From assembly GCA_021299375.1 (NCBI GenBank), contig JAJTGR010000022.1, forward strand, positions 62,001-126,000: a stretch of 64,000 nt of DNA, written 5' to 3'. The notes under the pieces were generated by a model, which worked only from the letters and a program-made list of their open reading frames with translations, did not search any database and was not told the origin of the DNA. Each line of letters starts with the position of its first letter. Position 1 is the stretch's first letter. The translations under genes were made by a program, and so were the position numbers. The stretch comes from Gemmatimonadota bacterium. Lineage in GTDB: Bacteria > Gemmatimonadota > Gemmatimonadetes > Gemmatimonadales > Gemmatimonadaceae. This document shows, piece by piece, positions 13,196 to 22,931 of the stretch.

Positions 13196-13633
13196 TCACG
13201 CCGGCTGTGCGGCGGATGAGCAGTAGGCGTCGAACGCGCGCGTGAGGTCGGCCGCGATCTCCTGCGCACTGCGCCCCTCGATCTGGTGCCGCTCGAGCAT
13301 GAACACCACGTCCCCGTCCTTCATGAGCGCAATGCTCGGCGACGACGGCCGGTAGCCCACGAACAGCGAGCGCGCCCGCTGGGTGGCCTCGACGTCCTGC
13401 CCCGCGAAGACGGTGGTGGCCACATCGGGCTTCACCGCATGAGACAGCGCCATGGCCACGGCGGGCCGCGCGTTGCGCGCGGCGCAGCCGCACACCGAGT
13501 TCACGACCACCAGCGCCGTGCCCGGCTGACCGACGAGCGATGCGTCCACGTCGGCCGCGGTGCGAAGCTCCTGGACGCCGAGACGCGTGAGTTCCTCGCG
13601 CATGGGAATGAGCAGCTGTTCGGGGTACATCAT
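13196..13633 (-). CDS. BrxA/BrxB family bacilliredoxin-like protein
   Basis: The 145-residue thioredoxin-fold protein has the family's CGC active site (C48-G-C50 in VNSVCGCAARNARPAV), the opening MMYPEQLLIPMREELTRLGV and the SPSIALMKDGDVVFMLERHQIEG segment. In Firmicutes the family removes bacillithiol from proteins; outside them it may act as a general disulfide or thiol-mixed-disulfide reductase. The start at 13633 has GAGGGA upstream. It lies 109 bases beyond the GroES-like gene and may have its own promoter. Confidence 0.88.
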   Translation of the reverse strand: MMYPEQLLIPMREELTRLGVQELRTAADVDASLVGQPGTALVVVNSVCGCAARNARPAVAMALSHAVKPDVATTVFAGQDVEATQRARSLFVGYRPSSPSIALMKDGDVVFMLERHQIEGRSAQEIAADLTRAFDAYCSSAAQPA

Positions 13634-13742
13634 GGGTCTGGTCCCTCTGGCAGAAGGTGAAGGGGGGGCAGGACGACGATGATCAGGGAGGAGGGAGCAC
13701 ACGGCGCGGCCGCCGGCGCCTCACCCTGCCTCGTCGGTGCCG

Positions 13743-14129
13743 TCAGAAATCCGGGATGTCTTCGCGGGGTTCGCGCACCAGCGCGAGGATCGCCGCCTGC
13801 GGAACCACGAGGAACTGTTGATTCTCGAACGTGATCTCGACGGCGGCCTTGCGGAAGAACAGGGCGTAGTCACCGACCTGCGCCTGCATGGGGACATACC
13901 GCGCCTCACGGCCCGAGGATCCACCAATCCGCCACGGTTCGTCACCCTGGTCGGCCAGGTCCGGCAGGGCGAGTCCGGGACCGGTGGAGACGATCTCCCC
14001 GCCCTGCACCGCCTGGTTGTCCACCGCCGTGGGTGGCAGGTACAGCCCAACCTTCGAGCGCTGCTCGCCGTCCTCGACTTTCACGAGGACGCGGTCGCCC
14101 ACTACGATGAGTCGCTTGTGCTTGCTCAT
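13743..14129 (-). CDS. GroES-like co-chaperonin family protein
   Basis: The 128-residue protein has the cpn10 fold: DRVLVKVEDGEQRSKVGLYLPP (mobile-loop region), GGEIVSTGPG, then QVGDYALFFRKAAVEITFENQQFLVV. It is about 30 residues longer than ordinary GroES, with an insertion near residues 58-80. There is no groEL beside it, so it is probably a second, specialised GroES-like protein and not the housekeeping one. Its ATG overlaps the stop of the Ser/Thr kinase gene (ATGA), implying coupled translation. Confidence 0.82.
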   Translation of the reverse strand: MSKHKRLIVVGDRVLVKVEDGEQRSKVGLYLPPTAVDNQAVQGGEIVSTGPGLALPDLADQGDEPWRIGGSSGREARYVPMQAQVGDYALFFRKAAVEITFENQQFLVVPQAAILALVREPREDIPDF

Positions 14130-15889
14130 GTCCGAAAACTAGTGTCCGGCGGAAGGGTGCCCGGAGGGGCTGCCCCGAGTCGATTTCGCTCGGCGGCAAA
14201 GCGGGCGAGTTCCTCCACGAGTTCCCGGAGTTCGCGGGACTTGGCCTTCACGGTCCGCCCAAGCAACAGCCTGGCACTGCCAAGCGCTGACACGAGGATG
14301 CCAGCGGCGAGTGCCACCCCGGTCCCCGGATTGCCAGTGTTGATCAGCACACCAAGGGTCGCAGTGCCCACGCTGAACCCGGCTCCGAGTCCGAGACCGA
14401 CGAACAAGCCGGTCACGGTCTGCGACAGGTCCTCGAAGGCGCGCACCGTGGTGCGCCCGTTCCTGGCCGACAGGGTCAGCTGCAAAGCCCGCGGAGTCGC
14501 CGCGTGATTGGGGCGCGGGACACTGGTGCTGATCGTGAGCGTCCGCCCGACGGCACTGATCGACACGAGGTCCCCCAGCGAACGGCGCGCGATGTCGGCC
14601 ACGTCCTCGAATGCCTCGAGGGAGAGCTCCCCCTCCACCACGGCCTCGAACTCGATCTTGCTGTGCGCCCCCAGAAACACGTTGGGCGCCGCGAGCGCCT
14701 GCCGCCCCGCGTGCACGATCACGTCGGTAGGCGGATGGGCCGCGGCGGCCTGCTCGGCCATGGCCCGTTCCACGTACTTCGGGGCGATCCCTGCCTCCAC
14801 GGCCCCCTCCTTCACCAGCGCCGCCTCGTAGCCGCGGGTGAGCGCCGGTTCCGCGGGTGGGGCCGGAAACTGGGCCGGCGGCACCACGACCCCGGTATTG
14901 GCCTGCAGCTCGGCCGCGCGGGCCCACACCGCCTCAGCCTCCGCCGACGACAGGGGCCGGGCCGGCAAGGTGGGCGAGGCCGGGATCACCACCGGCACCG
15001 GCAGGGCGGCGGCGGGCGCCTCGGCGCCGTCGTCGTCGGGGGCCAGCGTGTCCAGCCGCTCCAGCAGTGCCCGCGCGGACGCCAGCCGTGCCTCGCGGCG
15101 CTTGGCGAGCAGGTCGTGCACCAGCGCGTCCACCGACGCGGGCACGTGCGGCGCGACCTCGCGCAGCCGCGGCGGCGCCGTGTTGACGTGGGCCACCAGC
15201 ACCGCCGAGTTGTTGGCCCGCTCGAACGGGAAGCGCCCGCTGAGCATGCGGAAGAGCAGCACCCCCAGCGCGTACAGGTCGCTCCGGCCGTCGAGCGGCT
15301 CGCCCATGACCTGCTCGGGACTCATGTAGTGCACGGTGCCGAGCACGGTGCCGGTGGCGGTGATGGGCTGGGCCTCGCTCACGCGGGCGATGCCGAAGTC
15401 GGTGACCACGGCGCGTCCGGCGCCATCGAGCAGCACGTTCTCGGCCTTGATGTCACGGTGCACCACGTTGGCCGCGTGTGCGGCCTCCAGCGCCAGCGCC
15501 AGCTGCCGCACAATGGCCAGCGCGGCCGGCACGTCGAGCGGCCCGTCGCGCAGCAAGCGCTCGGCGAGCGACTCGCCCTCCACGTAGCCCATGGTGAAGT
15601 ACACCACGCCATCACGCTCGGCGGCGGAGTAGATGGGCACGATGTTGGGGTGCGACAGCGCGGCGGCGGTGCGCGCCTCGCGCAGGAAGCGCTGGCGCAC
15701 CTGCGCATCGGCCATGAGGTGCGACGGCAGCGTCTTGATGGCCACCCGCCGTTCGAGCTGCGTGTCCTCGGCGAGGTAGACCACACCCATGCCCCCCCGC
15801 CCGATCTCGCGCACGAGACGGAATGCGCCGGCGACGGCGCGGGCGAGCGAGGGAGCAGGATCGGCCCAGGCCTGGGCGTCGGTGTTCAT
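14126..15889 (-). CDS. Eukaryotic-like Ser/Thr protein kinase with membrane C-terminus
   Basis: A 587-residue protein. The kinase domain (about 23-285) has the glycine loop GRGGMG (30-35), VAIK lysine 52, HRDIKAENVLL, TDFGIA and the APE-region variant MSPEQ. A proline/alanine linker follows. Around 330-450 there is a helical segment resembling short SHOCT-like pairs plus an alpha/beta stretch; near 500-560 come two hydrophobic helices. There are no PASTA repeats. It lies 22 bases after the FAD oxidase gene and overlaps the GroES-like gene, so it probably belongs to the polyamine/membrane operon as its regulator. The ATG at 15889 is preferred; an upstream extension has no similarity. Confidence 0.88.
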   Translation of the reverse strand: MNTDAQAWADPAPSLARAVAGAFRLVREIGRGGMGVVYLAEDTQLERRVAIKTLPSHLMADAQVRQRFLREARTAAALSHPNIVPIYSAAERDGVVYFTMGYVEGESLAERLLRDGPLDVPAALAIVRQLALALEAAHAANVVHRDIKAENVLLDGAGRAVVTDFGIARVSEAQPITATGTVLGTVHYMSPEQVMGEPLDGRSDLYALGVLLFRMLSGRFPFERANNSAVLVAHVNTAPPRLREVAPHVPASVDALVHDLLAKRREARLASARALLERLDTLAPDDDGAEAPAAALPVPVVIPASPTLPARPLSSAEAEAVWARAAELQANTGVVVPPAQFPAPPAEPALTRGYEAALVKEGAVEAGIAPKYVERAMAEQAAAAHPPTDVIVHAGRQALAAPNVFLGAHSKIEFEAVVEGELSLEAFEDVADIARRSLGDLVSISAVGRTLTISTSVPRPNHAATPRALQLTLSARNGRTTVRAFEDLSQTVTGLFVGLGLGAGFSVGTATLGVLINTGNPGTGVALAAGILVSALGSARLLLGRTVKAKSRELRELVEELARFAAERNRLGAAPPGTLPPDTSFRT

Positions 15890-15911
15890 CAGGATGGTGA
15901 GAATCCGGTCA

Positions 15912-17519
15912 TCAGCGCAGCGCCTCGACGACCTGCTCGGCGGCCTGCACACCATGCCACTGGGCTTCTTCGAACAGACTGAAGTTGCTCAGATCGGCGT
16001 GCGCGGGGAACAGGCGCGGCGCCGGCCGCCATGCCTGCAGTGTGCGCACGCGGTCGAGTGTACCGGGCACCGGGCGCGCCATGGCGTGCCCCCAACGCAT
16101 GATATCCACACGGATGACCCGCTCATCGATGTCGGGGTGTGCGCGTCGCAGGTCGGCGAGAATCTCGTCGCGCCACGCGCTCCATGGGCGCTGCTGCAGC
16201 CAGCGACGGGCGTCCGGACCTGAGCGATCGACCACCGCGTGATACCAGGTCCAGACCGGCTGGCTCGGCGGCATGCCGAGCCGTTGATGCGACGCATTCA
16301 CGTAGCCCAGCGACGGGCTGCCGTAGACGACGTTGTCCCAGGCCAGCGGCGCCCCGCGCTCTTCGGGCAACCGGTCGAGCACGAGGTTGGCGACCACCCA
16401 CGGCGCGTGGTCGAACACCACGGGCAACGCGATGCCAGGCGTCACGCGGGGCAACAGCATCAGTGGAGCGGCCCATACCACGGCGTCGGCGACGACGCGG
16501 GCCGCTGGCGTGTCCACCACCCAGCGCGCCCCCTCTCGGGTGAGCCGCGCCACCGGAGCGCCCGTCACCACGCGGGGTTGCCCATCGGCGGCAACCACGC
16601 GCGCGAGCCGCTGGTGCAACTGGTGGACCAGCCAGGCGTTGCCCTCGGGCCAGGTGAGGGGGCCGTCCTCCTCGCTCGCGCGAGCAGCGAAGTAGTGCAC
16701 CGCTGCCCACGCGCTGGCCTGGGCGAGCGAGGCGCCGTAATCGTCGCGCGTTCCGTACTCCACCCACCAGCGCACGGCGGGCGACGTGAAGCCTTCGCGC
16801 TGCAGCCACTCGTGCGCGGTGCACTGGTCGAGCGCCGCGACCTCGCGGGCGAGGCGTGTCGCGGCGCCACTTCCGCGCAGCGCCTCCACTCGCATCGCGT
16901 GCCCCCGTGCGCTCGGCACCGTGAAGCCCCCACTCGCGCGCAGTTCCGCAACCCGAGCCTCGAAGCGCCCGAACTGCTCGCGATCGGCGCGTGACGCAGC
17001 GTCGAGCGGGGCGAGCCCCTCGTGCCAGCGCCCATGCTGCCAGAGTCGCTCCTGCGGCGAATGGCAGAGGACCCGTTCGTCGAAGCGCCCGGCGGCGTCC
17101 ATCACCCCAAGGTCGCGCAGGAGTTGCCGGACATGCACCGCCTGTTCATCGGGGACAGGCAGATAGTGGGCACCCCACGGCGCACGCTGCCCCTCGAGCC
17201 CCGGATACTGCGCGGCACGCGCATTGCCGCCCACCTGTGGCGCCAACTCGAGCAGTGTCCAATCCGTGAGGCCCAGCGCATCGAGCCGCCAACCGGCGGA
17301 CAGGCCGCCGATGCCCCCACCGACAATGGCGACGGCCACGCGCCGCATGGGGCGTGATGGCGACCGCGCCAGTGTGCCGTCGCGCAGCGCATGCCCCACC
17401 GTACTGTCGTCGTCCACGAACCCGCCGCCGACGACCCGCCCCTTCGGCGTGAGGCCCACGAGTGCCGGCGCGGCCAGCAGGGCCCCGAGCGACTGCAGGA
17501 CCTCGCGGCGCGACGTCAT
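15912..17519 (-). CDS. Tat-exported FAD-dependent amine oxidase-like protein
   Basis: The 535-residue protein starts with a twin-arginine signal (TSRREVLQSLGALLAAPALVG) and has an FAD-binding Rossmann motif VAIVGGGIGGLSAGWRL (about 63-80), followed by LELAPQVGGNARA, as in the flavin amine oxidase superfamily. The rest fits an amine-oxidase-type substrate domain but the C-terminal FAD motif is weak. It lies 27 bases after the spermidine-synthase-like gene. Inference: it oxidises an amine, perhaps a polyamine product, on the outer face of the inner membrane after folding with FAD in the cytoplasm. A dehydrogenase or isomerase role is possible. Confidence 0.82.
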   Translation of the reverse strand: MTSRREVLQSLGALLAAPALVGLTPKGRVVGGGFVDDDSTVGHALRDGTLARSPSRPMRRVAVAIVGGGIGGLSAGWRLDALGLTDWTLLELAPQVGGNARAAQYPGLEGQRAPWGAHYLPVPDEQAVHVRQLLRDLGVMDAAGRFDERVLCHSPQERLWQHGRWHEGLAPLDAASRADREQFGRFEARVAELRASGGFTVPSARGHAMRVEALRGSGAATRLAREVAALDQCTAHEWLQREGFTSPAVRWWVEYGTRDDYGASLAQASAWAAVHYFAARASEEDGPLTWPEGNAWLVHQLHQRLARVVAADGQPRVVTGAPVARLTREGARWVVDTPAARVVADAVVWAAPLMLLPRVTPGIALPVVFDHAPWVVANLVLDRLPEERGAPLAWDNVVYGSPSLGYVNASHQRLGMPPSQPVWTWYHAVVDRSGPDARRWLQQRPWSAWRDEILADLRRAHPDIDERVIRVDIMRWGHAMARPVPGTLDRVRTLQAWRPAPRLFPAHADLSNFSLFEEAQWHGVQAAEQVVEALR

Positions 17520-17546
17520 GGGTACGCCGAGCGCCGTGCCAGCGGC

Positions 17547-19043
17547 TCAGCGGTTGATGGCATCGAACTCGTGCTCGTAGTAGCGCACGAGCACCTGATC
17601 GTTGAGGCGATTGGGTTCCGCGGGCACACGCCGCATGTCGGCAGGAAAGTCGAACAGCGCCGGCACCGTAGCCGCGGTGAGATAGCGCAACCCGTCCGGC
17701 AGCCCTGGCGGCGGCGCATAGCTGTCGAGCCCCGCGATCACGAAGCCCCACTCACCGAAACTCGGCACGTACACGTGATACGGCCACGTGCGCAGCCCTG
17801 CCCCCTCGAGTGTGGCCACGATGCTCCAGAACGACTGCCGCGCGAACAGCGGCGAGGTGCTCTGCACCGCCAGAAAGCCGCCCGGGGCGAGGTGCTGCTT
17901 GACCAGGCGATAGAACGCACTCGTGTACAGCTTGCCCACGTGGTAGTTGGACGGATCGGGGAAATCGATCACCACGAAGTCGTACTGCGCCGCGTGGGTG
18001 TCGAGCCAGGTGAAGGCATCGGCGTTCACCACCTGCACTCGCGCGTCGTTGAGTGCCTGCGCGTTGAGCGCCGTGAGGCGCGGGTGCGTTTGGAAGAGCG
18101 CCGTCATCCCTTCGTCGAGGTCGACCAGCGTCACCTGCTGCACGTCGGGGTAGCGCAGGATCTCGCGCACGGCAAGACCGTCCCCGCCGCCCAATACCAG
18201 CACCCGCCCGCGTGCCCGCGCCGCCGACAGCCCGGGGTGCACCAGCGCCTCGTGGTAGCGATACTCATCGCGCGACGCGAACTGCAGGTGGCCGTTGAGG
18301 TACAACCGCAGATCGTCCTTCCAGCTGGTGAGCACGATGCGCTGGTACCGCGTGTCCTTCGCCAGGATGATGGGGTCGGCGTACATCCCCTCCTCGGCGA
18401 GCGTGGTGATGGCCTGCCCCTTCCACAGGCCGCCGCCGAGCACGACCAACGCCACCAGTCCCGCCACCTGCAACCACCGCCGCCGCGGCAGCTCGTGCCT
18501 GAAGAGCCACGTGCTCCACAGCCCCACCAGCACGTTGATCACGCCGAAGAGCAGCGCCGAGCGCACGAGCCCGAGCCGCGGCACCAGCAGCAGCGGAAAG
18601 AGCAGCGAGGCCACCAGTGCGCCGATGTAGTCGAACGTGAGCACGTTCGCGACCACGTCCTTGAAGCTGAAGCGGTCCTTGAGGATGCGCATCAGCAGCG
18701 GGATCTCGAGCCCCACCAGGATGCCGATGACCAGCACCAACCCGTAGAGGGTGGGGCGGAACGCCTCGGTGTACGCGAAGGCCAGGAACAGCGCCAGCGA
18801 CGACAGCCCGCCCACCACACCCACGATCAGCTCGATGAGCACGAACCGGGCGATCACGCCGCGGACCACGAAGCGCGAAAGCCAACTCCCGATCCCCATC
18901 GCGAAGAGGTACGTGCCGATGATCGTGGAGAATTGCGTGACACTGTCGCCCAGCAGATACGAGGCCAGCGCGCCGGCCACGAGCTCGTAAATGAGTCCGC
19001 AGGCGGCGATCAGACAGACGGACAGGAACAGCGCAACGGGCAC
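17547..19043 (-). CDS. Membrane-anchored spermidine synthase-like aminopropyltransferase
   Basis: The 498-residue protein has about seven membrane helices (residues 1-215) fused to a spermidine-synthase-fold domain. That domain shows VLVLGGGDGLAVREIL (decarboxylated-SAM site), VTLVDLDEGM, NADAFTWL and DFPDPSNYHVGKLYTSAFY, which corresponds to the DxxDP gatekeeping loop of SpeE. It should transfer an aminopropyl group from decarboxylated S-adenosylmethionine, supplied by SpeD of the same operon, at the membrane. The acceptor is unknown. It lies 30 bases after the DUF350 gene. Confidence 0.88.
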   Translation of the reverse strand: MPVALFLSVCLIAACGLIYELVAGALASYLLGDSVTQFSTIIGTYLFAMGIGSWLSRFVVRGVIARFVLIELIVGVVGGLSSLALFLAFAYTEAFRPTLYGLVLVIGILVGLEIPLLMRILKDRFSFKDVVANVLTFDYIGALVASLLFPLLLVPRLGLVRSALLFGVINVLVGLWSTWLFRHELPRRRWLQVAGLVALVVLGGGLWKGQAITTLAEEGMYADPIILAKDTRYQRIVLTSWKDDLRLYLNGHLQFASRDEYRYHEALVHPGLSAARARGRVLVLGGGDGLAVREILRYPDVQQVTLVDLDEGMTALFQTHPRLTALNAQALNDARVQVVNADAFTWLDTHAAQYDFVVIDFPDPSNYHVGKLYTSAFYRLVKQHLAPGGFLAVQSTSPLFARQSFWSIVATLEGAGLRTWPYHVYVPSFGEWGFVIAGLDSYAPPPGLPDGLRYLTAATVPALFDFPADMRRVPAEPNRLNDQVLVRYYEHEFDAINR

Positions 19044-19073
19044 GACAGGCTACCAGAAGAGTATCGGCACCAC

Positions 19074-19286
19074 TCAGTGAATCGCCGCGGCGACAATGAT
19101 GCCGAGGGCGATGGCCACACAGCCGATCACGATGGCGACCGCGCTGTTCTGCTTGGCGCTGAGCTCATCCCACAGCTTGCCCGGCGTGAGCAGGTCGATG
19201 ACGAGGAACGCCACCGCGAACAGGATGACGCCCAGGAAGGCGAAGGCGGCAGAGTTGACGATGTTGCTCATGAGTTGTTCGATCAT
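19074..19286 (-). CDS. Short DUF350 membrane protein
   Basis: A 70-residue protein with two membrane helices and the loop LLTPGKLWDELSAKQNSAVA that typifies DUF350. Common DUF350 proteins (such as YjfL) are about 130 residues with two such units; this one holds a single unit and may act as a dimer. The ATG at 19286 has GAGGAT upstream. In other bacteria DUF350 genes cluster with DUF4178, PspA-like and polyamine genes. Function is not established. Confidence 0.85.
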   Translation of the reverse strand: MIEQLMSNIVNSAAFAFLGVILFAVAFLVIDLLTPGKLWDELSAKQNSAVAIVIGCVAIALGIIVAAAIH

Positions 19287-19296
19287 GCGGAGATCC

Positions 19297-19485
19297 TCAC
19301 TTGCCGCGGAGTGTGCGACCCGGGACGTAGTACGAGGAGCGGTACGCGCCGGGGTTGTCGCGCACCGATCGGGGATTGGTCTTCGATTCGTTGACGGACG
19401 TGAGCGTCCAGCCACGGTATTGCGCCACCCCGAGCAGGGTGAGCACGAGCGCGGCCCACACCGCGTACACGCGCGCGCCTAGCAT
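19297..19485 (-). CDS. Small one-TM protein of the polyamine/membrane operon
   Basis: A 62-residue protein with a single N-terminal membrane helix (VYAVWAALVLTLLGVAQY) and a polar tail (residues 25-62) rich in Ser, Asn, Arg and Tyr. No family recognised. It is 10 bases upstream of the DUF350 start and 48 bases after the DUF4178 gene, in the same direction, which supports a real gene. It may be an assembly factor or anchor. Confidence 0.7.
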   Translation of the reverse strand: MLGARVYAVWAALVLTLLGVAQYRGWTLTSVNESKTNPRSVRDNPGAYRSSYYVPGRTLRGK

Positions 19486-19533
19486 GCGGCGGCCTCCGTG
19501 GCCGGCGTGTGTGGGCTACTGGTCATCGTCGCC

Positions 19534-20826
19534 TCAGGAAGACGCATGATCGCTTTCCGCCCAGCGCCGGCCTTCGAAGCTGGCGCTTGGCAGGACGGCC
19601 AGGATGGTGGGCAGCAGCAGGGCCAGGAAGGCCAGGCCATAGAGCGCCATGTGCGGGACATCTCGGCGCACCGACAGCGTGTACGCCACCGACGCCTTGG
19701 CGGGTTCGCCACCCTCCGGTTCGACCCGCAGGAAGTAGCGGCCAGCCGGGACCGCAGCCAGCCGCACGGTCTCCGTGCGCGCGCCCTCCGACCACGCGCC
19801 GTCGCTGTCGACCCCGGTGTAGTAGCTCACCTGGCGCGACAGCTCGCGCGTCTCCCCGGACGCTTCGTTGATGAGCGCCAGGGAGAAGAACACCCAGTCG
19901 TTGTCGAGGGTCGTCCCGATGTCGATGGTCACCCCCGAGGGGCGACCGTCCAGCTCGAACGGCGGTGTGACGAAAGCCGCGGCCTCGGCAGTGCGGCGAT
20001 CGAAGGTATAGCCTTGCGTGAACACCTTCCGGTCGCTCGCGAGCCCGACGTTGGCGATGAGCATCGCCAACAGCGCCAGCAGCGCCACGGCGAACGTTCC
20101 AAAGACCCGCGTGGGGAGCCCGGCATACGGATTGGGCTGGTTGGCGAAGACCCCGATCGGATCGATGAGGGGCTGCGCGAGCCCGAAGGCCTTCTGGATG
20201 AGCGCCGGCTTGGTGTAGGTGCCCTGCGACCACGTGATCTCGTTCTCGGACTCCTCGGCGCTCAGGAGGAATGGGGGAGCCACGAAATCACGACTGGTGA
20301 TCGTGTCCCCGACGCGCAGCTCCCACGGGAACTCGCCGAGCGCCGCCGTCGTGCGGGCCACGGCGGTCTGGAAGTGCTTGTAGGTGACGCCATCCAACTC
20401 GACGGTCGGCTGCGCCCCGCTCGTCTCACGTACGGGCCGACGCCGCAACTTCTCGATGACATTCCAGTGCCCGTCGTATTCCGACAGGTACAGGAAGCCC
20501 CGGTACGGATTGAAGCAGACGTACTCCCGCCAAGCGTAGTCGACCTCGTCGACGGTGATGGTCACCTGCTGGCAGCCGATGACCTCCCACGATGCCCCCT
20601 TCCAGGTGCCACGCGTTCCCAGCGGAATACGTGGACGGAAGGTGACCTGTTCGCCGTACTGCAGCACCCGCAGGTTGGGGTCGGTGGCATCGAGCTGGGC
20701 GCCACAGGCGGCGCACACCACGCTCACGGCCCACCCCTGCGCGTGCAACTCGATGGCAGCGCCGCACGATGGACAGCTCAGCGACGACAGCTGCGGCACG
20801 GGCGCCGTAGCGACCGGGTTCACCAT
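19534..20826 (-). CDS. DUF4178 protein with zinc ribbon and two TM helices
   Basis: The 430-residue protein begins with a zinc ribbon (CPSCG...CAACG, residues 18-40), then a DUF4178 domain (GTWKGASWEVIGCQQVTI...WREYVCFNPYRGFLYLSEYDGHW). Later come one membrane helix (about 270-292), an extracytoplasmic beta domain and a second helix near the C-terminus. DUF4178 proteins accompany SPFH, PspA-like and DUF350 genes elsewhere, but no activity is known to me. It is the larger of two adjacent DUF4178 genes. Confidence 0.85.
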   Translation of the reverse strand: MVNPVATAPVPQLSSLSCPSCGAAIELHAQGWAVSVVCAACGAQLDATDPNLRVLQYGEQVTFRPRIPLGTRGTWKGASWEVIGCQQVTITVDEVDYAWREYVCFNPYRGFLYLSEYDGHWNVIEKLRRRPVRETSGAQPTVELDGVTYKHFQTAVARTTAALGEFPWELRVGDTITSRDFVAPPFLLSAEESENEITWSQGTYTKPALIQKAFGLAQPLIDPIGVFANQPNPYAGLPTRVFGTFAVALLALLAMLIANVGLASDRKVFTQGYTFDRRTAEAAAFVTPPFELDGRPSGVTIDIGTTLDNDWVFFSLALINEASGETRELSRQVSYYTGVDSDGAWSEGARTETVRLAAVPAGRYFLRVEPEGGEPAKASVAYTLSVRRDVPHMALYGLAFLALLLPTILAVLPSASFEGRRWAESDHASS

Positions 20827-20862
20827 ATGGACGGCACCGAGACCGCCGACAGCCTCACGGCC

Positions 20863-21507
20863 TCACCACCCTTCGAAGGTCCGCAGATTGCGGAGCGCGA
20901 GATCATCGTAGGTCAGGTACTCGCCGAGGTAGAGCAGCGGTGGGGTCTCGCTGCCATCGATCGTGGCGAAGCCGCCTTGTGGCGTCTGCAGGTCGACGAA
21001 ACGACAGGTGGTGCGCGCCCACGACGTGAACGGCAGCTCGCCCTCGGTCCCGAGGTAGTGCGCTTCGGTGACGCCGACGACATCGTAGCCGGTGTCGTTC
21101 CAGAAGTAGGTCTCGCCCGGATGCACCCGCAGGAGATCGGGCAGGACCCCACGCGGGTCCGCCTGTTCGGTCATGGCGTACTCGAGCTGCGCATCCGACA
21201 GCCACGCGCTGTGCCCGTCGTTGAGCAGGCAGTGCCATTCGTTCCAGCGGCCGCGTTCCCAGGCGTAGGTAAGTCGACCGACCACCACAAACGATCGGGT
21301 GCGCCAGCGCCCCTCGGTGCCGATCTGGATGGGCGAGCCGGTGAGGGGAAACTCCGCCTGTTGCCCCACCCGTTCGAGCTGGAGGTCTCGGCGCACGAGC
21401 ACCGCGCGGCAGTACGGACACGTGGTCTGTACGGCCTGCGCCCACAGGAAACGCACGGGGGCGCCGCAGTTCGGGCATGTGGCGCCGTGCGCCTGCGGGA
21501 CCGTCAC
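20863..21507 (-). CDS. Soluble DUF4178 protein with zinc ribbon
   Basis: A 214-residue protein with a zinc ribbon (CPNCG...CPYC) and one DUF4178 domain (RWRTRSFVVVGRLTYAWE...WNEWHCLLNDGHSAWLSDAQ). It has no membrane helix. The GTG at 21507 is chosen because it overlaps the speD stop codon as GTGA; a longer reading frame from 21609 would run deep inside speD. It pairs with the next, larger membrane DUF4178 protein and may form the soluble half of a complex with it. Confidence 0.84.
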   Translation of the reverse strand: MTVPQAHGATCPNCGAPVRFLWAQAVQTTCPYCRAVLVRRDLQLERVGQQAEFPLTGSPIQIGTEGRWRTRSFVVVGRLTYAWERGRWNEWHCLLNDGHSAWLSDAQLEYAMTEQADPRGVLPDLLRVHPGETYFWNDTGYDVVGVTEAHYLGTEGELPFTSWARTTCRFVDLQTPQGGFATIDGSETPPLLYLGEYLTYDDLALRNLRTFEGW

Positions 21508-21887
21508 CGTGCGCCGGGCGTGGCCACCAGCGGCCCCACGTACTCGCGGGAGAGCTGACGGGCGTCCACCTGCTCCGCGCCGAGGAGCGCCGGCAACCGC
21601 TCGCGCCATGGCCAGGCGGCGCGCGGTGTGCAGCAGAACAGGTTGAGGCAGGCCGAGCCATGCTCGGGAAACGTGTGCACCGTCAGGTGTGACTCGGCGA
21701 GCATCACCATGCCGGTAATGCCTCCGGGCGCCGGAAACTGGTGCCAGAGCGCCGGCGCCACCGGGTGCAGGGCGAGGTCGGCGATGATCGCGTCGAAGAG
21801 CGCGTGCAGTGAGGCCGGATCGGCGAGGCGTACGGGGTCACACCCGTACGCCTCGACGATCCACTCACTCCCCTGATGAGCCAGCAT
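21504..21887 (-). CDS. speD: S-adenosylmethionine decarboxylase proenzyme
   Basis: The 127-residue bacterial-type SpeD has the self-cleavage site E65-S66 in LAESHLTVHTFPEHG, where Ser66 becomes the pyruvoyl group. His71 and Cys86 have the same spacing from the Ser as the processing/catalytic residues of the Thermotoga enzyme. It makes decarboxylated SAM, the aminopropyl donor for spermidine synthases. It lies 12 bases after the SPFH gene and its stop overlaps the DUF4178 start. No speA, speB or speC is in the window. Confidence 0.95.
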   Translation of the reverse strand: MLAHQGSEWIVEAYGCDPVRLADPASLHALFDAIIADLALHPVAPALWHQFPAPGGITGMVMLAESHLTVHTFPEHGSACLNLFCCTPRAAWPWRERLPALLGAEQVDARQLSREYVGPLVATPGAR

Positions 21888-21899
21888 CTTGCGGCGGCG

Positions 21900-22931
21900 T
21901 CAGCTCTGGGCCGTGCCGCAGGACGAGCAGAACTTCGCCGCCGCCGGCAACTGCGTACCGCATTCGGTGCAGTACTTCGTGGCCGTGCCGGCTGCGGTGG
22001 TGTCGGCCGGAGCGACTGGCACGGCCAGGCGTGTCGGAGGAACCGCGCCCCCGGGCGCACCGGATCCCCCCGTCGTGCCACGCATGGCGTCGGCGATGAC
22101 ACCGCCGAGCCCCATCCCCGCCCCGAGACCGGCGGCGAGTCCCGCCATGCCCCCCTGGTTGGCGGCCGCGATGGGAATGGATTGGGCGGCCTGGAAGGCC
22201 GTATAGGTGCGCATGTCCCCGATCATGTTCATCGAGATGCGCTCGTCGAGGCGCTTCTGCAACTCGTCGGGGAGCGACAGGTTCTCGACGGTGAACGACT
22301 CCAGGGTGAGCCCGAGCGCCTCGAACGCCGGTTGTACCGTGCCGGCGATCTGCGTGGCCAAGTGCGCCTGGTTGGCGGCCATGTCGAGGAACGGCACCTG
22401 CGCGTTGGCGAACGCGCCCGTGAACCCCGCGATAATGGCGTTGCGCAGCGCCGGCTCGAGCTGCGCCACCGTGTACTCGGCGTCGGTGGCGCCCACGTTC
22501 CTCTGGAACACTGCCGGATTGGCGACGCGGAACGCGTACATACCGAAGGCGCGCAGCCGCACCGCCCCGAACTCGCGGTCCCGAATGGTGATGGGCTGCT
22601 GCGTCCCCCAACGCTGCCCCGTCTGCACACGGGTAGAAAAGAAGTACACGTCGCTCTTGAACGGGGACTTGAACAGCTTGTCCCAATTCATGAGGTTCGT
22701 GAGCAGCGGCAGGTTGGCCGTGACGAGCGTGTGCAGCCCCGGGCCGAAGGCATCGGCGGCGCGCCCCTCGTTCACGAAGAGCGCCATCTGTGACTCACGG
22801 ACCGTGAGCTGGGCTCCGCTCTGGATTTCCATGTCCCGCATGGGGAAGCGGTACATGAGGACGCCCGGACCCGATTCGGTCCATTGGATGACGTCGATGA
22901 ACTGCTTGCGCAGGAAGTCGCCCAAAGCCAT
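21900..22931 (-). CDS. SPFH-domain protein with C-terminal zinc ribbon (YdjI type)
   Basis: A 343-residue protein: N-terminal FLRKQFIDVIQW, an SPFH (band-7-like) domain (about 20-240) with LMYRFPMRDMEIQSGAQLTV and an LRLFGMYAF-type core (LRAFGMYAF), a Gly/Ala-rich linker, then two CxxC pairs at the C-terminus. This is the architecture of the YdjI/virion-core-like SPFH family, which binds membranes without a transmembrane helix. Such proteins assemble at sites of membrane stress together with PspA and DUF350 partners. It is the first gene of the compact polyamine operon; the preceding peptidase stops 44 bases upstream. The ATG at 22931 is the family start. Confidence 0.88.
   Translation of the reverse strand: MALGDFLRKQFIDVIQWTESGPGVLMYRFPMRDMEIQSGAQLTVRESQMALFVNEGRAADAFGPGLHTLVTANLPLLTNLMNWDKLFKSPFKSDVYFFSTRVQTGQRWGTQQPITIRDREFGAVRLRAFGMYAFRVANPAVFQRNVGATDAEYTVAQLEPALRNAIIAGFTGAFANAQVPFLDMAANQAHLATQIAGTVQPAFEALGLTLESFTVENLSLPDELQKRLDERISMNMIGDMRTYTAFQAAQSIPIAAANQGGMAGLAAGLGAGMGLGGVIADAMRGTTGGSGAPGGAVPPTRLAVPVAPADTTAAGTATKYCTECGTQLPAAAKFCSSCGTAQS

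Follow-up and report, generated by a model that had tools for sequence, protein, structure and literature searches.

The stretch analysed here (the window) comprises 64,000 nt of contig JAJTGR010000022.1 from a 4.48-Mb Gemmatimonadota assembly (G000) and carries an operon built around a spermidine synthase-type aminopropyltransferase (SpeE) that is fused to membrane helices. Its core consists of genes for an SPFH protein, SpeD, two DUF4178 proteins, a 62-aa protein ending in lysine, a half-length DUF350 protein, the seven-transmembrane (7TM) SpeE and a flavoprotein with a twin-arginine translocation (Tat) signal. This core recurs across Gemmatimonadota, on Acidobacteriota-labelled contigs and on some proteobacterial ones; the linkage is not due to chance, and the operon is real and conserved. 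Judging from the sequences, we propose with a probability of roughly 0.4 that SpeD makes decarboxylated S-adenosylmethionine (SAM), that the membrane SpeE caps the C-terminal lysine of its small partner with an aminopropyl group and that the SPFH, DUF4178 and DUF350 proteins organise the complex.

A conserved operon around a membrane-fused SpeE

On the minus strand, ten open reading frames (ORFs) follow each other in tandem from position 22931 to 13743 (Table 1), with gaps of 12, -4, 36, 48, 10, 30, 27, 22 and -4 bp. Recomputation thus returned the same ten co-directional genes, spaced from a 4-bp overlap to 48 bp, that a preliminary description of this DNA had given. The title of that description names nine genes, the tenth being the 62-aa one-helix ORF between the second DUF4178 gene and the DUF350 gene. 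A promoter and terminator scan was uninformative (no promoter-like site and five terminator-like sites against 3.0 expected).

Among 298 genomes searched within the phylum, 34 contain a SpeE scoring above 700 bits and set off by a clean score gap, including 15 of the 16 from the window's genus. In these 34 loci with orthologous SpeE, profiles recovered the 62-aa protein and DUF350 in every case, SpeD in 32, the oxidase in 29, SPFH in 26 and DUF4178 proteins a and b in 32 and 28, the latter two counts being lowered by fused or long ORFs assigned to the other DUF4178 model. Both loci missing SpeD (L050, L066) lie at contig ends. SPFH went undetected in six loci belonging to one family (L059, L060, L062, L064, L065, L067) despite long stretches examined. 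A wider sample consists of the best 80 loci from a genome-wide scan, labelled as Gemmatimonadota, Acidobacteriota and some Proteobacteria, some of the labels being doubtful. Gene order in most of the 80 is that of the window, and 75 encode the 62-aa protein; one of the remaining five, L147, is truncated by the end of its contig. Linkage in relatives, on which the preliminary description had made its reading depend, is thus strong in both samples. Among the matches listed, the closest SpeE relatives in named records carry Gemmatimonadota labels and include a metagenome-assembled genome of Gemmatimonas phototrophica. The labels of L079 (Kuenenia), L123 (Gammaproteobacteria) and L137 (Arcobacter) are odd, as the SpeE proteins concerned are similar to Gemmatimonadota or Acidobacteriota copies, and suggest misnamed bins or transfer.

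The combination of DUF350 with DUF4178 that characterizes membrane-SpeE operons is present in the window and its relatives. The PspA/CesT dyad of group 2 of Ravi et al. is not part of the window operon, where SPFH is found instead; Pfam matches to PspA were absent from nine operon proteins, the 62-aa protein and two flanking genes, the rest of the genome lying outside this search. DUF350 itself comes in several sizes in related operons, with 70 aa (half-length; window 19074-19286), about 133-145 aa or about 280-300 aa (L185-L191; L225:3516-3953), a series of sizes that would fit the repetition of a two-helix unit.

The membrane SpeE lies far above the cut-off of the NCBIfam model PRK03612 (472 bits), and its AlphaFold2 model (predicted local distance difference test score 84.9, predicted template modelling score 0.60) consists of seven long helices followed by an aminopropyltransferase domain. 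This bears out the earlier view of a SpeD/SpeE machinery at the membrane in which SpeE is fused to about seven helices. The nearest solved chain is that of the triamine/agmatine aminopropyltransferase 3anx from Thermus thermophilus (Z 33.9, root mean square deviation (rmsd) 2.3, 279 residues aligned). Active-site residues D288, D310, D342, D360, D363 and Q394, which presumably serve in catalysis and donor binding, are invariant in all 58 membrane-type SpeE proteins aligned, as are the acidic helix residues E20, E113 and D138, with E71 conserved in 57. Lysine and arginine are concentrated on the N-terminal side of the membrane part (mean 8.75 against 2.54 on the SpeE side in 45 sequences; 8.46 against 2.70 in 13 divergent ones), and by this positive-inside charge count the catalytic domain is predicted to lie outside. 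The lipoboxes of certain partner proteins (see below) and the twin arginines near the N-terminus of the oxidase would point to the same side. A D[FLM]PDP motif was considered as a hallmark of membrane SpeE and dismissed, as the standalone aminopropyltransferases in L069 and L070 have DLPDP. In L071 (4602-7558) a speD gene is situated between two genes for membrane-type SpeE-like proteins; no lysine-ended partner occurs in the stretch examined, and this is apparently a different membrane aminopropyltransferase system.

Lysine-ended partners and the acceptor question

The 62-aa protein consists of one hydrophobic helix followed by a basic tail ending in ...NPGAYRSSYYVPGRTLRGK and has no Pfam match at 0.1. 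Sequences were gathered from 109 loci (some contigs counted twice), yielding 94 distinct tails. Lysine is the last residue in all 94, preceded by glycine in 93, and it is encoded by AAA in 51 and AAG in 43 cases; the use of both codons indicates that the terminal residue itself is under selection. The distance from an NPGxYRxxY motif to the C-terminus is 10 residues in 83 of the 94 and between 9 and 15 in the others, the motif being absent from one. None of seven other operon proteins counted in the same way has an invariant last residue, the nearest approach being DUF350 with histidine in 79 of 89. As a background, C-terminal lysine occurs in 11 of 462 genes (at least 100 aa) in the Gemmatimonadota loci and in 42 of 293 genes, partners included, in gammaproteobacterial loci. 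On these sequence grounds the 62-aa protein appears as the best candidate acceptor for the membrane SpeE, with the lysine as a plausible target.

Partners of a different build share this end. Among distant clusters, DUF4178 is followed in L153, L155, L156 and L180 by peptides terminating in THK, SHK, RVK and TGK, respectively, the one in L155 being annotated as a hypothetical protein of 48 aa. Their match to the profile of the 62-aa protein is marginal for L153 (12.9 bits) and L155 (10.8 bits) and marginal or nil for L156 and L180. In L179 (7019-8593), a helix and a Gly/Ser tail with the end GGSHK extend the C-terminus of the DUF4178 protein; two operon genes are naturally joined here, and the terminal lysine is kept. 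Lipoproteins of 193-215 aa adjoin SpeE in L181-L183 and end in SRGK, and the end is GRGK in a 525-aa lipoprotein of L068, a locus of the same phylum as the window. A profile of the longer lipoprotein, made from seven query proteins with their tails left out, was searched in 369 genomes and retrieved proteins from 13 of them, all 13 ending in GK and six lying outside the query. All ten genomes with a divergent type of SpeE (about 35% identical) carry the lipoprotein; seven of these fed the profile and three are independent. In G360, G482 and G543 it resides on a contig other than that of SpeE, and one further lipoprotein genome, G856, lies outside the SpeE comparison. A lipobox-like motif was found in 16 of 16 lipoproteins with a permissive pattern. 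A Pfam scan of ten partner-related proteins gave nothing over the cut-off. A phylum search around G303, made with the tails of actinobacterial DUF4247 partners in view, gave 0 of 247 and covered no known actinobacterial genome. Retention of a terminal lysine across partners of such unlike build looks new as compared with the published operons. In L181-L183, a gene with a shared type of N-terminal sequence precedes the genes for the SRGK lipoprotein and SpeE, and its product is a GNAT acetyltransferase according to Pfam in L182; it is possible that this gene encodes a further modifier of the amine.

Sister clusters with a ligase offer an instructive counterpart. Escherichia coli YjfC and YgiC carry the annotation peptide--spermidine ligase, and work by Pederick et al. 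(2023) on such ligases is cited in the accessible part of PMC12568646. Their neighbours YjfM and YgiB end in HWGG and SMGG, respectively, and among 12 DUF1190 proteins 11 end in GG, one (Vibrio campbellii) in GS and none in lysine. Neighbours were examined for the eight that lie in annotated stretches, and each of these adjoins a gene of the glutathionylspermidine synthase family or a ligase gene or is one gene away from it. In the window operon there is neither an ATP-grasp ligase nor a DUF1190 partner ending in GG, and the partner ends in GK. Since a ligase requires a carboxylate and an aminopropyltransferase an amine, GG and GK ends fit the respective enzymes. We regard this switch of the C-terminus with the enzyme as the strongest sign in the sequences that the C-terminus may be the substrate, although it is still a correlation. 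The ligase-type cluster of V. campbellii also encodes, next to the DUF1190 protein ending in GS, a hypothetical protein of 119 aa whose N-terminus resembles a signal sequence and whose end is NAGK (L225:5077-5436).

Capping of the terminal lysine could be envisaged as follows. SpeD would produce decarboxylated SAM in the cytoplasm; the seven helices would anchor SpeE, with their invariant acidic residues aiding passage of the cationic donor to the outer face. There, the SpeE domain would place at least one aminopropyl group on the side-chain amine of the partner's C-terminal lysine, a side chain that offers an aminobutyl arm like that of putrescine. The Tat-exported flavoprotein would share this compartment and could have the newly formed amine as its substrate.

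Several observations weigh against capping. Strict conservation of the C-terminus could reflect recognition, in which case it need not be the substrate. The tail of the 62-aa protein is strongly basic and by the positive-inside rule would be expected inside. Since decarboxylated SAM is a cytoplasmic compound, an outer-face domain would demand donor transport, itself a proposal, and the requirement of the sister-cluster ligase for ATP also argues for modification inside. As for sampling, the partners in L154 (SHK) and L157 (SGK) are well placed but were found by a filter that required terminal lysine, and the seven query lipoproteins were chosen after their GK ends had been noticed. No SpeE was matched at 1e-50 in two genomes with the lipoprotein (G496, G536). 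Clusters of the divergent lipoprotein type showed no oxidase, and none was found in L065 and L067 despite long stretches examined. SpeD is missing from the stretch in 14 of the best 80 loci, contig ends explaining some; the genome G300 has the operon (L103) and no SpeD match, and in G301 (L149) SpeD sits on another contig. Finally, four of the best 80 loci (L084, L095, L119 and L144) lack the 62-aa protein and DUF350 in the upstream sequence examined (8000, 632, 1262 and 8000 bp, respectively), the remainder of these genomes being unsearched for the 62-aa protein. This partnerless share is small and split operons occur, so that our estimate for lysine capping was left unchanged. The four loci have an intact membrane SpeE and upstream also lack SPFH and DUF4178, and the oxidase gene adjoins speE in L084 and L095. 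The operon copies in L103 and L149 contain no speD between the SPFH and DUF4178 genes.

Alternatively, the lysine-ended tail could dock on SpeE or regulate it, with a lipid, a component of the wall or some other amine as the real acceptor. Invariant C-termini are often recognition elements, basic tails would bind anionic lipids, and the accessible text of Ravi et al. (2024) leaves the acceptor open. The occurrence of GK in SpeE clusters as opposed to GG in ligase clusters suits substrates better, as does the retention of lysine over unlike scaffolds, and we therefore consider a docking role unlikely, if worth serious attention.

SpeD, the oxidase and neighbouring genes

The positions of all features are compiled in Table 1.

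Table 1. Genes of the membrane-SpeE operon and its downstream flank in the window.
Feature	Position	Strand	Evidence
SPFH/Band-7 protein, C-terminal zinc ribbon, 343 aa	21900..22931	-	Band_7_1 246 bits, Zn_Ribbon_1 31 bits
SpeD, class 1b AdoMet decarboxylase homologue, 127 aa	21504..21887	-	AdoMet_dc 85.5 bits
DUF4178 protein a, 214 aa, GTG start overlaps speD stop	20863..21507	-	DUF4178 73 bits (248-aa ORF scored)
DUF4178 protein b, 430 aa, N-terminus zinc-ribbon-like	19534..20826	-	DUF4178 79.5 bits
62-aa single-helix protein, basic tail, NPGAYRSSY motif, end LRGK; candidate aminopropyl acceptor	19297..19485	-	sequence
DUF350, half-length, 70 aa, two helices	19074..19286	-	DUF350 47.9 bits, profile 2-65 of 133
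Membrane SpeE, seven helices plus aminopropyltransferase domain, 498 aa	17547..19043	-	PRK03612 703 bits (NCBIfam)
Tat-signal flavin amine-oxidase-fold protein, 535 aa	15912..17519	-	NAD_binding_8 (FAD-type Rossmann), RR motif
Ser/Thr kinase, 587 aa from 15889 start (609 from 15955); non-core neighbour	14126..15889	-	Pkinase 167 bits
GroES/Cpn10-like, 128 aa; lineage-specific neighbour	13743..14129	-	Cpn10 48.6 bits
PF06491 disulphide isomerase, after GroES, same direction	13196..13702	-	200 bits

SpeD keeps the residues equivalent to S63, H68 and C83 of the Thermotoga maritima enzyme, which serve self-processing and catalysis. T. maritima SpeD has HTWPE where the window protein has HTFPE. Against TIGR03330, the latter reaches 66.3 bits, below the cut-off of 75.65. 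The roles of S63, H68 and C83 in AdoMet decarboxylase are given in the accessible part of PMC10407285, which also describes many homologues that are neofunctionalised as ornithine or arginine decarboxylases. If the window SpeD were one of them, the operon would make its own putrescine or agmatine, and the altered motif as well as the low TIGR03330 score could be taken in this sense. Its processing and catalytic residues and the proline of HT.PE are kept, however, and genomes with such a SpeD lack SpeA and SpeC according to the same part of PMC10407285, whereas G000 has a SpeA-length PF02784 gene; we deem this explanation highly improbable.

G000 encodes a single SpeD and a single SpeE over cut-off, both within the operon. 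It also contains the SpeA-length PF02784 ORF just mentioned (656 aa), two arginase/agmatinase-family genes and one deoxyhypusine-synthase/SpeY-like gene. Another genome of the same genus, G112, has a PF02784 decarboxylase and one arginase-family gene and no match to SpeD, SpeE or deoxyhypusine synthase. The decarboxylase and arginase genes in both genomes suggest an amine supply that is independent of the operon. The earlier statement that no putrescine-making enzyme is present therefore holds for the operon only.

This setting invites the view that SpeE is a spermidine synthase acting on free putrescine or another small amine and that the polyamine is released at the envelope to stabilise the surface. 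An intact active site, the decarboxylase and agmatinase-family genes and the position of SpeE as sole member of its family over cut-off in G000 would all fit. With 115 bits against TIGR00417 (speE), however, the protein falls well short of the cut-off of 249.55, the SpeY-like gene offers another route to a triamine, and neither the invariant lysine nor the conserved partner would be explained. In addition, Li et al. (2019) reportedly found that such SpeE fusions fail to complement an E. coli synthase mutant, and reportedly proposed an acceptor other than putrescine. We count the failed complementation against a spermidine synthase function, which we judge distinctly unlikely.

The twin arginines of the oxidase are invariant in all 38 family members aligned, in agreement with the Tat signal noted earlier for this flavin oxidase-like protein. 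Its fold matches monoamine oxidase A and bacterial monoamine oxidase (Z 29.0, rmsd 3.2-3.5, about 418 residues aligned) and putrescine oxidase (Z also about 29), tied with phytoene desaturase; the fold is also common to protoporphyrinogen oxidase. The Pfam family Amino_oxidase matches 26 of the 38 members, the window protein not being among them at 1e-3.

Genes for a Ser/Thr kinase and a GroES-like protein complete the tandem, and the preliminary description had seen in them operon parts, with the kinase exerting control. A 4-bp overlap and the shared strand in the window would favour working parts of the pathway, as would the presence of a same-strand kinase in nine of 15 loci from the window's genus. 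Three of the remaining six have a kinase on the opposite strand only and three end at contig ends. GroES occurs in ten of the 15; in L042 and L048 it has an upstream position, and L039 and L041 are without it. Neither gene was found in any of the 19 Gemmatimonadota loci outside the genus. Among the best 80 loci, GroES is confined to five with a SpeE identity of 84-90%, and a kinase is nearby in L102 (same strand), L129, L140 and L142 (opposite strand). Being reordered or missing within the genus and lacking outside it, the two genes were ruled out as core parts, and a role for them in the pathway has hardly any probability left; the distribution over 34 Gemmatimonadota loci speaks for local neighbours. 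Genes for the GroES-like protein and for a disulphide isomerase, presumably of the bacilliredoxin type, travel as a pair (window 13196-14129; L042, L048), at times upstream of SPFH.

Relation to known polyamine systems

The operon is of a published kind and represents a variant that includes SPFH, SpeD and an exported oxidase. The accessible text of Ravi et al. (2024; PMC11237479) describes operons combining 7TM-SpeE, DUF350, DUF4178 and a lipoprotein, for which a role in sensing polyamines or in aminopropylating other substrates is suggested; Li et al. (2019) is cited there. Related work is found, as far as the accessible parts go, in PMC11107197, PMC12506659 and PMC10948618. Membrane aminopropylation of an acceptor other than putrescine, as put forward in the preliminary description, fits the linkage of SpeD and SpeE and is not new, being the reading published in PMC11237479, where clusters of the PspA-type membrane-stress context that it had invoked are also present. 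A terminal lysine on the partners is not mentioned in the accessible text of PMC11237479 or elsewhere in the open-licence literature searched. The acceptor of membrane-fused SpeE is left open in that text, and the terminal lysine makes this question directly testable.

If the lysine is indeed capped, a membrane aminopropyltransferase would act outside the cytoplasm on the invariant C-terminal lysine of an anchored peptide or lipoprotein and would converge with the ligases on polyamine-capped C-termini within SPFH/PspA stress complexes, a wider scheme that we advance tentatively. It would suggest a reason why DUF350/SPFH/PspA stress operons repeatedly recruit polyamine enzymes, and the acceptor end, GK or GG, would become predictable from the enzyme present.

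Compared with the operons in the accessible part of Ravi et al. (2024), the window shares the 7TM-spermidine synthase fusion, DUF350, DUF4178 and an anchored partner. It differs in that an SPFH-zinc ribbon protein replaces PspA/CesT, SpeD and a Tat oxidase are encoded inside the operon, DUF350 has half its length and the partner comprises 62 aa. The E. coli pairs YjfM-YjfC and YgiB-YgiC resemble it in the DUF350/PspA context (yjf), in an anchored partner with a Gly/Ser/Arg-rich tail and in polyamine chemistry, but an ATP-grasp ligase takes the place of the aminopropyltransferase and the tails end in GG instead of GK. Soluble spermidine/triamine synthases such as those of T. thermophilus (3anx/1uir) have the catalytic fold and residues in common with the window SpeE and lack its membrane part; a P[STA]FG.WG loop is found in the 58 membrane-type SpeE proteins aligned. 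In eukaryotic-type translation factor eIF5A, a polyamine-derived group is placed on a lysine side chain, giving deoxyhypusine and hypusine. If our proposal is true, both systems modify lysine, with different partners and enzymes, and in the case of the operon described here decarboxylated SAM would be the donor of a hypusine-like modification in the bacterial envelope.

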